From: Physcia stellaris
Lineage: Eukaryota > Ascomycota > Lecanoromycetes > Caliciales > Physciaceae
Assembly (NCBI GenBank): GCA_018902385.1
Contig: JABSSW010000057.1
Location: 186,001 to 250,000 of the forward strand
Length of the DNA: 64,000 nt
Direction of reading: 5' to 3'
The position numbers and the translations under genes are program-made. Each line of letters begins with the position of its first letter. Position 1 is the stretch's first letter. Below, one piece after another: positions 34,739-48,214 of this stretch. The notes under the pieces were generated by a model. That model had not been told where the DNA came from. It was given only the letters and a program-made list of their open reading frames with translations, and searched no databases.

Positions 34739-35523
34739 TGTGCCCGTTCATACACCAATAAGTTTATTCGCCAATCAACGTACGTTCATTCGTCAATCAA
34801 CGCGTTCGTTCGTCAATGAACAGATATTGATCAATAAACGCGTTCATTGATCAATATTCAAATCATTGACAAACGATCTAATGTATTGCTCAACGCACGA
34901 AAATGTTGTTGTTTCAACGCATGCTGCTTTTGTGACCTGACGTATTAGCAGACTTTTCGTCGATACTGTGCAGCGAAACTCCTTCTTTTGCAGCGAAATT
35001 TCCATCATGTCTATACAGCTGTCTATACAGTCGCACAACGTCGAAGCATGAAGTCAATCTGATTAGTCGCTCAATAGCAGACATGTTGTACGAACACGTA
35101 AGTTCGTATAATGAGTTTGTGTATATAAATCTTTTGATAGATTTGTCAGTTAAATCAAGTCGTTGACATTTTTCATGTGTCGATGATCAAAAACTTATAA
35201 CGATCGAAAATAGACTGATGATGAGACTAGATATGAAAGTTGTGATAAAGTTTTTGATGTTTTGGAATGAATTGATCTCAATGGGCTTGACTGCAGAATT
35301 CGAAACGAAGACGATTTTCATGCTCTATTGATCTTGATCCGTATGCGAGACTTCTGCAGAATAAAAGCAGCAATGATAAATACGTTCATTTGACAATAAA
35401 CGAGGTGATTTGTCAATGATCTGAATATTGACCAATGAACGCGTTTATTGGCCAACAAACGTTGATTGATAAACGAACGACGTTGATTGGTCAATGCTCG
35501 TCATTGACCAATGAACGGGTACA
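34739..35523. mobile_element. 785-bp non-autonomous element with long terminal inverted repeats
   Basis: The left end (34739 to about 34870) and the reverse complement of the right end (about 35390-35523) align over roughly 130 bp. Shared blocks are TGTRCCCGTTCAT, CCAATCAACGT, AATAAACGCGTTCATTG and TCAATATTCARATCATTGACAAA in broken form. Each arm is itself built of short palindromic units of the type CGTTCATTGGTCAATGAACG. The flanks GCAGA (34734-34738) and GCCGA (35524-35528) may be a diverged 5-bp target-site duplication. No transposase is encoded, so this is a MITE-like DNA element mobilised in trans, or a foldback element. Confidence 0.72.
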
Positions 35524-39972: not shown

Positions 39973-40571
39973 GAGTGTTTTATGGATTATGCAGGAATTC
40001 TGGTAAGACATGGACGATGACTGACATGAGCTTATGCCTGTAACCACCAGAGTATTATAGTGGGATACCTGAACCGATGAACTAGGGATCCTATGACTCT
40101 GATAACATCATAGAGTGAAGTTGAATCTGAAGCCAAGTCCACATTGTCGCTATGGTCCATGCACTGACACAGGACAAATTTCGAGCATCAAATAATTTCA
40201 GTGTCCCATATCACCAGCTTTGGAGAGGGCTAAAGTTGACAGACGTGCCGGCGTTGCAATGCAGACATGGAGAAATCCGTAAAAGTACTGAGAGGTGAAT
40301 TGCGGCAAGGCTGCACTGGTGCATGTTGTGTGTGCATTTTGAGGGCTGAGAAAGCGGTGTATGTGGCACCCATCGATAGATTGACTGAGGCGGCCCACTG
40401 GTCTGTTTGGTTCCGTGACTACGTATCGATTAGATAGCTGCTAGACGTCTCGAATTGAGAATCAGGATCTTACAACAATTCTTTATCATCCTGCTCGATC
40501 TGGGCGGTATGAGTACTCGGCCTAACGCGGTGCGCCTCTTCCCTCGACTGTTGATGTAGACGATAGACGCT
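39973..40571. other. Intergenic with ordinary base composition up to the repeat island
   Basis: No gene seen. Base composition is normal right up to the copia element's target-site duplication at 40572-40576, so the change into AT-rich DNA is abrupt. Confidence 0.5.
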
Positions 40572-40576
40572 GATGT

Positions 40577-40729
40577 TGTTACAGGTATGTAGGATGCAAC
40601 GTGCTTATATTCATGATAATATTATCTATCGTACATGTGATGAATGTGAATTATTGTACAGAGTTTGCACGTTAGCCTATAATAGAATAACGCTTTGACA
40701 TTGTCTTTGATAATAAATTTATTTCAACA
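40577..40729 (-). repeat. Copia element LTR (3' LTR in element orientation)
   Basis: 153 bp, aligned without gaps to 45661-45813. Preceded by GATGT. Confidence 0.9.
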
Positions 40730-43700
40730 TTTTTTTCGAATTTGCAAAAATATAAAATCATGATGTTTAATTCATTTCGAGCATGTCGATAAATCGTTAA
40801 TATTTGAACGAAAATAAAAATTTGATGAAATCGTCGATTGACATAATGTCGATCGTTATATATTTGAATTCAATGCGATTTTTTTTTAATTTCGTTTTTT
40901 ATATAATGATATACGATATCGACGTGCTTGATGCGATCATGATGTATTAAATTTTCATTGAATGTTTTGACGTTTTAATTGTCAATATTTATCAATATTT
41001 TGACGTAATTGTTCGATTAATTTTGAATTCGTAAATCAACGAATAATTGTTTGAATCAAATAATTTTTTTGACGACGAATGATATGATCATATATTCGAC
41101 GACGCAAATAAACGTGATCACGATGAATTGAAATTTTAACATTCAATTTATCGAGTCGTCGTTTAATAAAAACAAATATGTTTCGATGAATTTTTTAAAA
41201 ATTTTGTCACGAATTCAGTTTGCATCGCAATATGTTTCGATGTTTAATTTTTTGTTGAAATTATCGTCGTAAATTATGCAAAAATCGATCGTGAAATTGA
41301 AATAAATTATAACACGTTTGATTGTTTTGATATGATTAAAATTGAAATTTTGAACAAATCGATTGATTATGAAAATCGCATTCGTTACATTTGATTTGAT
41401 TTTTATCATTGCAAACATGATTGAATTCATCATTGTTTGATATTGTTTGATATTTTGATCGATAATTTGATTAACGTTGAAAATTGAATCAAATGATTTT
41501 TTCATGAATGTTCGAATTGATTTCGCATTTTGTAAATCGAATTTTTTAACGACGCGTTGAATATATGTTTTTTGATTAAAACGAATTATGTGCATTTCGC
41601 GATTTTTGAAAATGATCATATCAAAATAAAAATTTATTGATTCAAAATCAATCATGTCGAAAACGTTATTGAATTTTGTTTTTGCTTTGTTAATCATGAT
41701 TTTATTGAAAGCAATGATTTTGATATCATCGATTCATGTAATAATGATAAAATTTTTGAAATCAACATTCGTGACGAATATGTTTTGATTCGCGTCGAAA
41801 AAATTGAAAACTAGTTTTTGTAAAAAAAATTCGAACAAACGTTTATATCAAAGTTTGAATGATTGTTTCAAATTATACAATGTTTTGTTCAATTTGCAAA
41901 TAATTTTGTCATTGTCACATTCAATCGAATATTTAACGTAAATATTTGAATCAATGAATTCGTATAAAAATGCAATTTTCACGTTCATTTGCTCAATTTT
42001 CAAATTCAAAAAAACGACAACGACGAATAAAATTCGAAAAATTATTGACTTGACGACGAAAACGAAAATTTGATCAAAATCAATGTCGTATTGTTGTAAA
42101 AAATTTTTGACGCATCATTTAATCTTGTATCGTATCACAACGTCATCGACATTGCGTTTGAATTTGTAAATTCATTTATCGTTCAACGATTTTCTTTCAT
42201 CGAGCGTGAAATTTATTAAATTTCAAATGTGATTTTTCGATAAAAAATCGAATTTTTTTTTCATTGTTTTTAATCATTGTGAAAAATGAAAATTTCGTGC
42301 GACGTCGTTGTAATTATTTGATTTTTTCTCGTCGATCGTCAACATTGTTATGAATTTTTCGAACGAGAAAACGTCGATGTTTTCGACGTAATCGATCAAC
42401 AATGAAACGAAATTGATCGTATCAAATTCAACGTTTGCAATTGAAATTGATTGAAAATCAACAATGTTGTCGAACAAAACAATTAAATCATTTGAATTTG
42501 AATTTCAATTTGCGAACAATTCACGCATTGCTAAATGAAACATCGTGAAATTGACAAAAATTATGACATTGTAAACGATAAAATTCATAAAAAAATTTAT
42601 TCGAGTTGTTTTTTGTTTGAACGCATTGTAACGTATTTTTGTGAAATTTTTTGAAAAATTTTTTGTTGCTGTGACGTCACTGATTTTTGTATAATGATAT
42701 TTGAAAATTTGATTTTGATATGTGATCGAATTTCAATGTTTTGAAAAATTTGAAATTGAATTTTTTGTTTTTTTGTAATGAATTCAATGTGAATAACAGA
42801 AAAATTCATCATTGTTAAATTAACAATTGATTCGATAAAATTCTCATCGAATTCGATGTCAATTTTTGATGTTGATTTGTGATTATAAATATCGAAATTT
42901 TTGACGCGTTCGATTTTCTGACTAATCGATATGTAAATTCGATAAATGATGTCATCGTCATATTCGATGAAAATTTTTTTCGACGTTCGATTTAAAATGA
43001 TTTTTGATTTTTTTGTTGATGACGACGTAGACGATTGATTCGAATGAATACATGTTCGTCAATTTCGAAAATTGTTCGTAAATATTTTCGAACGATGATT
43101 GATTTTTCAAATACGAAACTGAACGTCGATTTTTGATATACGTCATTGCATGTGTGATATCAAATCACAAAAAATTCGATATGTTTTTCGTCAATAACGT
43201 TGTTTTGATCATGATAATGAAAATACGTTAATATGTTTCGATTACATCATTGACGTTCTGAACATTTGTTGAAATTGAATTGAATTCAATGTCTTGATTA
43301 TCAAAATAATTGATTGATTACGTGTTGCGAAATTCGTTGTCATAATTTGTACGTACGATTTTGACGTCAACATCGAATTGACGTTTGATTCAATTAATGT
43401 ATTTGATAAAACATGTAATCATTCGTGTTTGTTTTTGACGATGTATATTTTCGTTCAACGTGATTTGTCATCGATGATATTGATGTAATAACGTTCATTT
43501 TCAAAATTTTCGATCGTTATTGATATTAAATCAATATGAATAATATGAAACGTTTTTTCGACATGATGAATATTTTTTTTATTCGATTTTTTTTTTGTTT
43601 TGATTAATTTGCAAATATCGCAATGATTATTTTTGCAATCGTTTTGATAAAAATAATTCAATTTCTTTAAATATTGACGTAATAAAAAAAAATTTATGTA

Positions 43701-45660
43701 ATTCAAATTTCGATGTCATACGATGAACGACAATGATAATGTTGTTGACAATGCAATCATTTGATATGATTGCAATTTCAAAACGTATAATTCGTTGTTT
43801 TGCAAAAAAACATATTCGATTGATTTGTTTTGATGTTTAAAAATGTGATTTTCAATGTTTCAATAAACGTTTTGTTTTTCGAATGTTGATATTGACAACA
43901 AGTTTGTTGACGAATTTGACATGTAAAAAATTGACAAATCAATGAATTGATCATTTGCATTGTTGTAAAAAAACGAACAATAATTTGATTATTTTTTTTT
44001 AACAATGAAACAAGTTTTGTTTGCAATTACAACATGCTCGATGTGAAACATGAAAAAATGTATAAAATCTCGATTTTTGCACACGTGAATGTTGACGTTC
44101 GAGTTTGTGTATCACAACATATCGTTGATTGAATGATTAATGAACAGAATTTGTTTTCAAAATTCAATCAACGACGTTGATTGTTATTGTGAATTTTGAA
44201 TTTTTTCAAAGTTTTGTTGTATGAATGATCAGACATGTTTTTGTTAATTCATTTTTTGAAAACGCTTTTTGAATAATTATAATAACACTTTTCAAAATTA
44301 TGTTTGATGAAATCGTTGTTTATGCATTTTTGATTGATGCAAAAAAAATCGATGTATTCAAATTTTGATGTATTGAAACGAATACGTTTAAATTTTTCGA
44401 AACGATCAACGATCAATGCAATTGAATTTGATTTTGCTATCGTATCGATGATAATTTTAACGAAATTCAAAAAAAAAAAATTTCGATTTCGATGAAATTT
44501 GTGTTTTCGAAAATTCATTCGTCACGTTGACGAGTCACGAAATAATTGAAATGAATTAATTTGTGCATTTTGAACAACAGAATATTTTGACAAAATACGT
44601 CGACAATGAGTTTCGAATCAATTTTTCGATAATCAATTGATTGTGTAATGATTCGACGATTTTGATGTAAAATTCGACGTTTGTTAAAATGACAAATCGA
44701 TCAATGAAATCGAAAATGATATCGACGAGAAAAACGAAAATATTTTTTTGAAACGTTTTGTTATTTTTGTTCAATAGATCGATGATGTTGAATTCGTTAT
44801 GACAATGATAAAAAAACGATGATTGACGTTCATTGCATTGAACAAATAAAAAAAAATTTTATTCAAATTTCGTTCGTGTTTCTCGACGACGATGATGAAA
44901 TTCGTGAATTTAATTTTCGTTTTTGCATCGATGAAATTTCAATCGATATTTTTATCGTGTAAAAATTCGACGATAAACATTGATTTTATTGATAAATTGA
45001 TTGTTCATTCAACGTGATTGACTCGAAAATCGTTTTTGACGTCGATTTTTCAATTGAAATACTGTTTTGATTTTGAAATGAAAACGACAAAATTGTGAAT
45101 GATGTTTGACGTAATCATTGTAATATTTAAGTTTGAAAATTTGAATCGTATAAATGAAAAAAAAAAAAAAAACGTATGTGACTCGTGAAATCGTATAAAA
45201 CGTGTAAATTTCATGTCGTATTTGTTTTTTTTTTTTCATTTCGTAACAAATGAATTCGAAACATCGATTCGAAACAATGACGAGTTCATTAAGTTATCGA
45301 ATCGTGTATGTGAAATTTCGTGTTTCTTGAAAATGTTTTTATCGAAATCGAATGATCGATCGTGCGTTCGAATTTGACGTTCGCTTAAACGATGAATGAC
45401 GTTTCGATCGATCGACGTCGATATTCGTTTTTGAAATCTTTGAAAAACTAAATGACGATCGTTAAAAAAACAATATGCATACTATTGACGATACTAAATG
45501 ACGATAAATTCGTTGTGAATTCAATTTGATGTTTTCGAATTTGATCGTCGTTTAATTCATTAAAGATTTTTCGATCGATGCATAAATCAACGTTTGAACG
45601 TTGTAAAATAATATGAATCGATTCGAATGATGTTTGACAAACATTGTCGAATTCATAATT

Positions 45661-45813
45661 TGTTATAGATATGTAAAATGCAACGTGTTTATATTCATGA
45701 TAATATTATCTATCGTACATGTGATGAATGTGAATTATTGTACAGAGTTTGCACGTTAATCTATAATAGAATAACGTTTTGACATTGTTTTTGATGATAA
45801 GTTTATTTCAACA
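45661..45813 (-). repeat. Copia element LTR (5' LTR in element orientation)
   Basis: 153 bp, aligned without gaps to 40577-40729. Followed by AATGT. Confidence 0.9.
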
Positions 45814-46215
45814 AATGTGTTTTCATTATGCTTTCGTAATTCGATTAATTGAATTGAGAAATTTCGAAATTCTTGCGTCGAAATGATTGCAATGACATAG
45901 ATTTTGTCAAATTTTATTGCTATTTCTCGTGTCTCATAATGATTTCGAAATGTAAAAATTTTAATGTCAAGACATTTCAGTGCGTTTTGCAAATTTCTAT
46001 TGACGTTACGCGTATTTTTCATCACGACGTTCGAAAATGAAATATTTTTCGTTTCGATTTTTCGAATTTCACGTCAACATTATTTGCACATCATCGATAT
46101 ACGCACACTCTATTCGATTTTGTAACATTTTCGAGAACATTCATCATGTTAACGCGAAGACATCGACTTCGTGAAGTCAACAGCATTCGCAATTCAATAC
46201 ATATTATTTTCTTTT
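45814..46215. other. AT-rich spacer between the two LTR elements
   Basis: About 400 bp with the same depleted composition as the neighbouring elements. A minus-strand open frame (45756-46025) is present but not recognisable. The spacer is either part of an older repeat or single-copy DNA hit by spreading mutation. Confidence 0.45.
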
Positions 46216-46220
46216 GCAGT

Positions 46221-46374
46221 TGTTGAAGTATAATGAAAATTCAAAATCATGTTTTGATTATTATGACTATGAAGATGTAAATGTAAAATACATCGAATGA
46301 AAATGAGAAATTGCTCGCTAATATACAAAGACAATAAATTAGTTTCAATCGAATTCAAACTTGAATTCGCAACA
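46221..46374 (-). repeat. LTR of the short element, hypermutated copy
   Basis: 154 bp; matches 48057-48214 except for a few indels and roughly two dozen G:C to A:T transitions. Confidence 0.9.
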
Positions 46375-46756
46375 CTTTTTTTCAAATCGAATTCGATTGA
46401 AACGAATTGTTGTTCTTTTAATGAATTTTCAATTATGCTCTCGCTGATCTCGTTAAATTTTTAAAAACTTTGTGAAAAAACTGAAAAGAATGCTCAGCAT
46501 CTTCGACAAATGAAATGATAAATCGATGCGATCAATATATATAATCAATTTTTGTTGATAGATGACGTTGTTGCTATGTATGTTTTTCATTACATAGTTT
46601 TTCTTTGTCAGTGATTGCTGGAACGTCATATCGCTCAGCTTCAAAATAAATATTTTGTACTCAACTATAAAGCATTGTATGAAGAGTTTTCTAAAACGAG
46701 ACAAAGCAAAAAAATACTCAACAATCATTGACAAAAATACTCGTGATATTGTATAA

Positions 46757-47400
46757 GTGATAGCTTGATGATTTAATTTGCAGCTTGATGACTGAGTAAT
46801 GTATAAATGATAGCTTGATGACTCTGTAATTTGCAACTTGATGACTGAATAATGTATAAGTGATAGCTTGATGACTTGATAATTTGTATAAATGATAGTT
46901 TGATGACTTAATTTGCAACTTGATGACTTTGTATAAATGATAGTTTGATGATTCTGTAATTTGCAACTTGATGACTTAATGACTTAATTTGCAACTTGAT
47001 GATTTTGTATGTATATGACTTATGATCAACAATGACTTTTAGTCAACAATGACTTGATATAAACATCAATGACTTTAATATTAGCAATGAGATTGTATGA
47101 TCAACAATGATACAGTCAACAATGACTTGATATAAACGTCAATAATTTTGATTTATCAACAATGACTTTGCGTATGATCAGCAAATGATACAATCAACAA
47201 TGACTTGATAAAAGCATCAATGACTTTGATTTATCAACAATGATGCACATTTATTCATGAATTGTTTCATTAGATCTGAATATGTTTCAATAGATTTGAT
47301 ATGTTCCAATAGATTTGATATGTTTCAATAAATCTGATAGATCTGATATGTTTCAATGAGTCTGATATGTTTCAGTAGACCTGATATATTTCAATAAATA
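46757..47400. repeat. Degenerate tandem repeats inside the short LTR element
   Basis: Three successive arrays. About 46757-47010 is built on units like GATAGCTTGATGAC and TTTGCAACTTGATGACT. About 47030-47240 is built on ATCAACAATGACTT and ATAAACATCAATGAC. About 47265-47400 is built on TGATATGTTTCAATAGAT. Units are irregular in length and order. Confidence 0.8.
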
Positions 47401-47627
47401 GTAAAATTTCAATGATTTGAATGTCTAGTGACTTGTATGCTCAAAACTCATTATAACAATGTTAATTACAATTGATAGTAACGAAAACGCGTTGCGTTGA
47501 TGAAAAATTTTTGCTCGAAATGACAAATTGCGATCGTGAAATCAATTGCGATCGTGCATTTGTTGTTTGTTTGTAAAAAACGATGTGATGTTCATCGTGA
47601 GATTGCGACGCGTATAGCGCCGGACTC

Positions 47628-48052
47628 ATTTAGCGTGAAAAAGTTTTTTGCATTTTCTTGACATTTTTTTCAATTTTTTCTTTTTCAAATTTGTATGATA
47701 GTAATTTGAGAAAATTTTTCAATTGATGTTTCAATCATTTTTTCAAGCATATAAATCGTTGAAGTCTTAAATATTTCTGTATAGTTTTTTCTTGATGTTG
47801 CAAACATGTCTTTTCGCAAATCTTAAAATTAATTCTAAGTCTTGTTTGAGAGACATTGAATGAAAAATCGATAAAACAACATCAAGAAACGACTATACAG
47901 AAGGAATTTTTATGACTTCAACGATTTATATGCTTGAAACTTTAGTAAAAACATCAATTGAAAAATTTTCTTAGATTACTACCATACAAATTTGAGAGGA
48001 GGGGCCGAGAGAAGGATGCCAAGAAAATGCAAGAAACTTTTTCACGCTAAAT
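47628..48052. repeat. 425-bp foldback (long inverted repeat) next to the right LTR
   Basis: The left arm (47628 to about 47800) and the reverse complement of the right arm (about 47880-48052) align over roughly 170 bp. They share ATTTAGCGTGAAAAAGTT, GCATTTTCTTG, AAATTTGTATG, AAAATTTTTCAATTGATGTTT and TCAAGCATATAAATCGTTGAAGTC in broken form, with about 80 bp between the arms. It could be a nested MITE or a leader hairpin of the host element, since it starts only four bases inside the right LTR. Confidence 0.8.
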
Positions 48053-48056
48053 AACC

Positions 48057-48214
48057 TGTTGAAGTATAATGAGAGTTCAGAACCATGTCTTGTTATTATT
48101 ATGACTATGGAGTGTGTAGGTGTAGGATACATCGGATGAAAGTGGGAACTGCTCGCTCACATGTACAGAGGGAATAAGCTAGTCCCAATCGGGCTCAGGC
48201 TTGGATTCGCAACA
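48057..48214 (-). repeat. LTR of the short element, largely unmutated copy
   Basis: 158 bp with near-normal GC content; paired with 46221-46374. Confidence 0.9.

Follow-up and report, generated by a model that had tools for sequence, protein, structure and literature searches.

A 64,000-nucleotide stretch of the genome of Physcia stellaris (Ascomycota; Lecanoromycetes, Caliciales, Physciaceae), here called the window, contains a mutated repeat island at 40576-48052 in which the G+C content falls from about 0.48 outside to 0.25-0.30 inside. The island comprises a copia element and reaches into el2, a short long terminal repeat (LTR) element at 46221-48214. The question raised by this locus is which process removed its cytosines. 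The original prediction, based on the window, held that C-to-T changes had fallen on cytosines followed by C or T (CpC and CpT, together CpY), with CpA spared. We propose that a process of the repeat-induced point mutation (RIP) type, with a changed target, probably acts on the repeats of P. stellaris.

Sequence context of the changes

The copia interior (40740-45650, 4.9 kb, both strands) contains no CC/GG and 59 CT/AG (observed/expected, O/E, 0.12), together with 666 CA/TG (O/E 1.40) and 570 CG (O/E 3.34), the O/E of TA being 0.41. The island flanks give O/E values of 0.90-1.08 for all four CpN dinucleotides, and 1000 mononucleotide shuffles of the interior yielded at least 143 CC+GG compared with the 0 observed. 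Relative to the flank, C/(C+T) is 0 in every NpCpC, 0-0.09 in NpCpT and 0.66-1.20 in ApCpR, GpCpR and TpCpR; the value for CpCpR is 0 because no CC remains. The dinucleotide comparison with the flanks therefore agrees with the reading of the island as nearly devoid of CC/GG and poor in CT/AG, with CA/TG and CG common. A recount of the el2 LTR pair placed 27 of 29 C-to-T or G-to-A changes in CpC or CpT, with losses of 13/14 CpC, 14/22 CpT, 2/23 CpA and 0/8 CpG, as had been described by eye. The same bias, also predicted for the copia LTR pair and the foldback arms, was found in 8 of 9 changes in the former, and in 5 of 5 and 4 of 4 in the first and second arm pairs, respectively. The second arm pair carries 9 further differences, 3 of which are reverse transitions, and is weak evidence taken alone.

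Genomic copies were aligned from the P. stellaris assembly (43,974,083 bases in 147 contigs). The genome paper describes 46.57 Mb in 184 scaffolds and a culture raised from ascospores (PMC7513301; this and all other papers are cited from excerpts). In the copia1 set, 12 rows were compared at first; L047 and L071 proved to be one element, and the counts were repeated with 11 distinct elements against the least-mutated copy L054, which is lightly mutated itself (4 TGA in RVT_2). Losses amounted to 2572/2654 CpC (97%), 3280/3895 CpT (84%), 450/4961 CpA (9%) and 101/3807 CpG (3%). The spectrum consists of C>T (0.44) and G>A (0.39), with every other substitution type at or below 0.009, and both strands are mutated alike. 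Unpolarised counts over 24 copia copies, taken as C/T differences divided by C/T differences plus conserved C, give 0.77 for CpC, 0.68 for CpT, 0.10 for CpA and 0.04 for CpG. In copia2 (reference L053, 3 copies) the losses are 1307/1377 CpC, 1016/1245 CpT, 94/1434 CpA and 58/1265 CpG, and in el2 (reference L052, 5 copies) 496/629, 395/754, 62/1032 and 24/339, respectively. The transition-only spectrum is weaker in el2, with other substitution types up to 3.3%. Since the CpA and CpG losses of el2 are equal within error (0.060 and 0.071), it is copia1 and copia2 that place CpA ahead of CpG. Thus, the alignment by 3' neighbour, which had been named as a refuting test of the original prediction, places the transitions in CpC and CpT and finds CpA nearly spared.

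Relative to CpA, the median hazard over 14 copies is 46 (17-192) for CpC, 26 (13-63) for CpT and 0.3 (0.1-1.0) for CpG. In L043 and L045, the copies with the heaviest mutation, CpA loss amounts to 0.19 and 0.24, indicating that CpA is a slow target and not an immune one. Neighbour effects were studied in 9 pairs from 7 distinct elements. The 5' base has little effect, as CpT loss is 0.64-0.74 whichever base precedes; a C at +3 is associated with a CpT loss of 0.80, compared with 0.65-0.67 for other bases. Clustering of CpT changes on the same strand, with z of 2.4-4.0 over shuffles in 6 of 10 copy pairs and -1.8 to 1.2 in the other 4, is not used as evidence, two of the pairs re-using elements.

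Each copy was mutated in place. Retained CpT sites, compared in 21 copy pairs, overlap 1.2-2.9 times more than by chance and are not nested; L060 and L062, for example, have 36 in common, compared with a chance expectation of about 25 and with 62 under nesting. The excess over chance shows cold sites common to the copies. A wider context preference may exist, as suggested by the retained CpT sites shared relative to L054 and by the higher CpT loss that accompanies C at +3.

Transposon classes, stop codons and repeat edges

The preference for CpY with sparing of CpA is strong not only in the copia and el2 copies, but also in 25 of the 30 RVT_2 loci fetched, which were the best-scoring of 141 matches, and in all four RVT_1 and DDE_1 stretches, one of them partly. 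The 25 loci retain 0-6 CC in the domain, with 84-98 CA and 68-92 CG, whereas the other five have 49-91 CC, 87-98 CA and 66-100 CG. The short stretches, two of RVT_1 and two of DDE_1 chosen by domain, contain 20, 3, 1 and 1 CC and 109, 83, 110 and 102 CA, the first being partly mutated. If the genome consists of two compartments only, its overall G+C of 43.32% (PMC7513301), set beside 48.7% in the island flanks and 27% in the island, suggests that about a quarter of it is affected. Two of the copia copies in the unpolarised count, L017 (C120) and L018 (C70), lie on different contigs yet look nearly identical, with equal numbers of CpC and CpT and closely similar composition; they may represent a segment that was duplicated, or one contig may be an alternative version of the other.

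Stop codons in the relics were tallied by hand, after scoring 150 of 165 RVT_2, 150 of 527 RVT_1 and all 11 DDE_1 candidates. TGA accounts for 408 of 512 stops in RVT_2 (141 rows, 4 stop-free; TAA 101, TAG 3), 250 of 286 in RVT_1 (150 rows, 10 stop-free; TAA 33, TAG 3) and 44 of 47 in DDE_1 (10 rows, 1 stop-free; TAA 3). Four intact RVT_2 domains, three of which represent one family, have 4-5 TGG codons compared with 12-15 chances of TAA or TAG by a CpA-type change. Most stops are TGA, an excess that TGG-to-TGA change at CpY therefore predicts. In a separate PF00383 deaminase-domain match at C64:178666-179121, all internal stops are TGA (4 in number), which might reflect introns or a duplicated gene struck by the same process.

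The changes are limited to repeated DNA, as indicated by the edge profile of 24 copia copies and by normal flanks and flanking genes. At the edges and INDEPENDENCE, sequence outside the copia LTR has a CpY fraction of 0.44-0.53; in successive 50-bp steps inside, the fraction is 0.32, 0.22, 0.21, 0.11, 0.05 and 0.00, then 0.02-0.10. The value of 0.00 is reached at 250 bp inside the repeat, and the weaker border spans 150-250 bp. Therefore, the weak mutation seen in the window's outer LTRs reflects a general edge effect.

Within the window, the outer copia LTR (40576-40729, minus strand) is part-mutated, having lost 15 of 29 CpY sites relative to the least-mutated copy, and the inner copia LTR (45660-45813, minus strand) is mutated more. 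Between them, the copia interior (40730-45659, minus strand) lacks CpC and GpG and nearly all CpT, and contains a relic of RVT_2, the copia reverse transcriptase, interrupted by 4 TGA stops (41503-42201, minus strand; C57:227503-228201). A further mutated, unstranded stretch (45814-46220; CC 0 and CT 19 over 45820-46220) separates the copia element from el2. In el2 (plus strand), the inner LTR (46221-46374) is mutated, the interior (46375-47627) has lost most CpC and about one third of CpT, and the outer LTR (48054-48214) is unmutated. An unstranded foldback insertion within el2 (47628-48052) adjoins this outer LTR, and the mutated zone has its right-hand limit within this insertion. The predicted limits of the island stand, although both edges are soft: the CpY fraction is 0.45, 0.29 and 0.09 at 40500, 40600 and 40700 on the left, and 0.03 at 47500, 0.28-0.36 at 47600-47800 and 0.52 at 47900 on the right. 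Elsewhere in the window, CpY is also depleted, though less strongly, over 34760-35500 (at 35001-35500 the CpY fraction is 0.29 and G+C 0.36); short motifs recur in this stretch, which is perhaps a partly mutated repeat.

Comparison with known RIP systems

The process is RIP-like by the broad criteria that can be tested and may be classed as a variant of RIP: C:G to T:A transitions are the only frequent changes in copia1, less strictly in el2, and a RID-type gene is present in the genome. It is neither of the classical CpA type nor of the basidiomycete type, in which CpG is the main target. Classical RIP is scored by TpA/ApT above 1.15 and (CpA+TpG)/(ApC+GpT) at or below 0.75 (PMC7882544); the island gives 0.44 and 1.49, respectively. 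As predicted, such an index misses the island: CpA-based indices are positive in 0 of 13 island windows, and likewise in 0 of 24 mutated RVT_2 cores.

In Neurospora crassa and Trichoderma reesei, too, a RID-type gene is present and RIP causes C-to-T changes in both strands of repeated sequences. However, the order of targets is CpA>CpT>CpG>CpC in N. crassa, and T. reesei takes CpA and CpG first and CpC last (PMC5496416), whereas P. stellaris takes CpC and CpT first and CpA and CpG last. Both explicit four-way orders found place CpC last. A CpT signature alongside CpA has been described in Botrytis, Sclerotinia and Magnaporthe (PMC4352252) and in Anisogramma (PMC10998396). These fungi resemble P. 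stellaris in CpT as a main target, and some carry two RID-type genes, but P. stellaris differs in that CpC is the foremost target and CpA almost escapes. A RID motif has been proposed for CpT, and the predominance of CpT in Magnaporthe and one Botrytis strain counts against a simple rule of CpA always first (both PMC4352252). CpT to TpT is also the dominant form in the alignments of PMC7882544. In Rhizoctonia AG8, CpC is the most closely spaced class of CpN single-nucleotide polymorphisms, in counts that are not normalised and that its authors call CpG-biased (PMC4014442). Microbotryum and other basidiomycetes share C-to-T change in transposons but target CpG or TpCpG (PMC4352252), and CpG is least or nearly least struck in P. 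stellaris. In Cladonia rangiformis, also a Lecanoromycete, the boundaries where genes meet mutated transposons are similarly sharp, and the transposons peak near 16% G+C (PMC12542154). Loss of every CpY would halt at a computed 25-26% G+C, which suggests that other contexts must be struck there. In the titles, abstract openings and excerpts covered by our literature search, we found no report of RIP acting mainly on CpC or CpY and no RIP analysis in Physcia.

Candidate enzymes and rival explanations

RID and DIM-2 homologues, whose search had been recommended with the original prediction, are present: the genome carries two genes of the RID type and one of the DIM-2 type. RID1 (C5) is complete in its model, with motifs I, IV, VI, VIII, IX and X; over the 295 residues compared it is 100% identical to a P. 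stellaris protein, and a basidiomycete origin of the sequence is rejected. RID2 (C6:791557) has the sequence features of the RID/Masc1 methyltransferases: it matches PF00145 and has DNMT motifs with PCQ and, in the alignment, EQT/EET replacing ENV. RID2 departs from the RID consensus at 13 positions and RID1 at 2, in a comparison that includes RID1 relatives among the other sequences; in RID2, the segment that follows the catalytic PCQ and the recognition region are the parts that depart. We infer a changed enzyme specificity behind the CpY preference, for which the sequence differences make RID2 the leading candidate, with about an even chance of being the enzyme. The structure model of the Heterodermia RID2 orthologue P0002 resembles DNMT1 and DIM-2 in a fold search and has no bearing on specificity.

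RID alone suffices for RIP in Neurospora, and the canonical RID1, complete as modelled, might have drifted in specificity while RID2 has another role; this is rather unlikely considering how few consensus positions RID1 has changed. The second RIP pathway of Neurospora is linked to DIM-2. That pathway (PMC12543289) and the DIM-2-type gene found here make a heterochromatin-guided enzyme conceivable, though improbable, as the sharp limit at repeat edges and the unaffected flanks suit homology better than spreading heterochromatin. The genome also has eight PF00383 matches, no search having been made with AID/APOBEC families, and a cytidine deaminase could in principle edit transposons, either as DNA or as cDNA. 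The APOBEC/AID enzymes known so far recognise the base 5' of the target, with a strong 5'-neighbour preference and strand bias. In P. stellaris both strands are struck alike and the 5' base matters little, making a deaminase very improbable; editing of cDNA is rejected, as a DNA transposon class (DDE_1) is struck too.

Explanations without a dedicated enzyme fare worse. An assembly artefact, or copying of one already mutated master, might be thought of because the mutated copia copies are still 90-96% alike to the window copy. It is scarcely credible, since CpT loss varies from 0.60 to 0.97 between copies and unmutated copies occur in the same assembly; the un-nested retained CpT sites described above reject a copied master. 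CpC and CpT are also dipyrimidines, at which ultraviolet (UV) or spontaneous damage could occur. The chance of such an origin is negligible, because copia1 has lost 0.09 of TpCpA and 0.03 of TpCpG compared with 0.86 of ApCpT, and flanking genes are normal; the sparing of TpCpR rules out UV damage.

Several points weigh against a repeat-directed CpY process with RID2 as its enzyme. The loci outside the window were picked by domain or family match and are not an unselected genome sample. Three copia3 copies, L056 (C8:901336), L057 (C42:397536) and L068 (C7:888840), are 95-97% alike yet unmutated, with open frames of 1257-1624 aa; any excess of CpC among the differences between them is slight (CpC 0.027-0.039, CpA 0.015-0.018). 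They may be recent arrivals or escapees. Forty other copia3-family matches are 69-80% alike to these three, several with TGA stops. In addition, the many RID1 relatives counted in the RID comparison make RID1 look more canonical, and RID2 also occurs in Heterodermia and further sequences.

Based on these results, we propose a mechanism for the RIP-type process. Repeated DNA would be recognised, and C-to-T conversion in either strand would be confined almost wholly to CpC and CpT and continue to their near exhaustion, with CpA struck slowly and CpG hardly at all. By analogy with Neurospora, the agent would be a RID-type cytosine methyltransferase active in the sexual phase; in a narrower form, this might equally well be RID2 as not, altered after PCQ and in the recognition region. 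Tentatively, and with slightly less than an even chance, a second RID lineage of Physciaceae with these alterations may have switched RIP from CpA to CpY, so that stops would arise mainly from TGG to TGA while nearly every CpG and most CpA would stay available, for example for methylation.

A survey of 1,239 fungal species in 2025 found that RIP-like defences share a CpA preference (PMC12543289). The near-saturating process of P. stellaris, which largely spares CpA and CpG, breaks this rule and exposes a blind spot in current RIP indices. The two RID paralogues in one genome provide a natural contrast for how RID enzymes choose cytosines. If the RID2 switch is true, a small number of residues would determine the specificity of RIP, which could thus evolve, and indices built on CpA would have missed part of the RIP that occurs in fungi.

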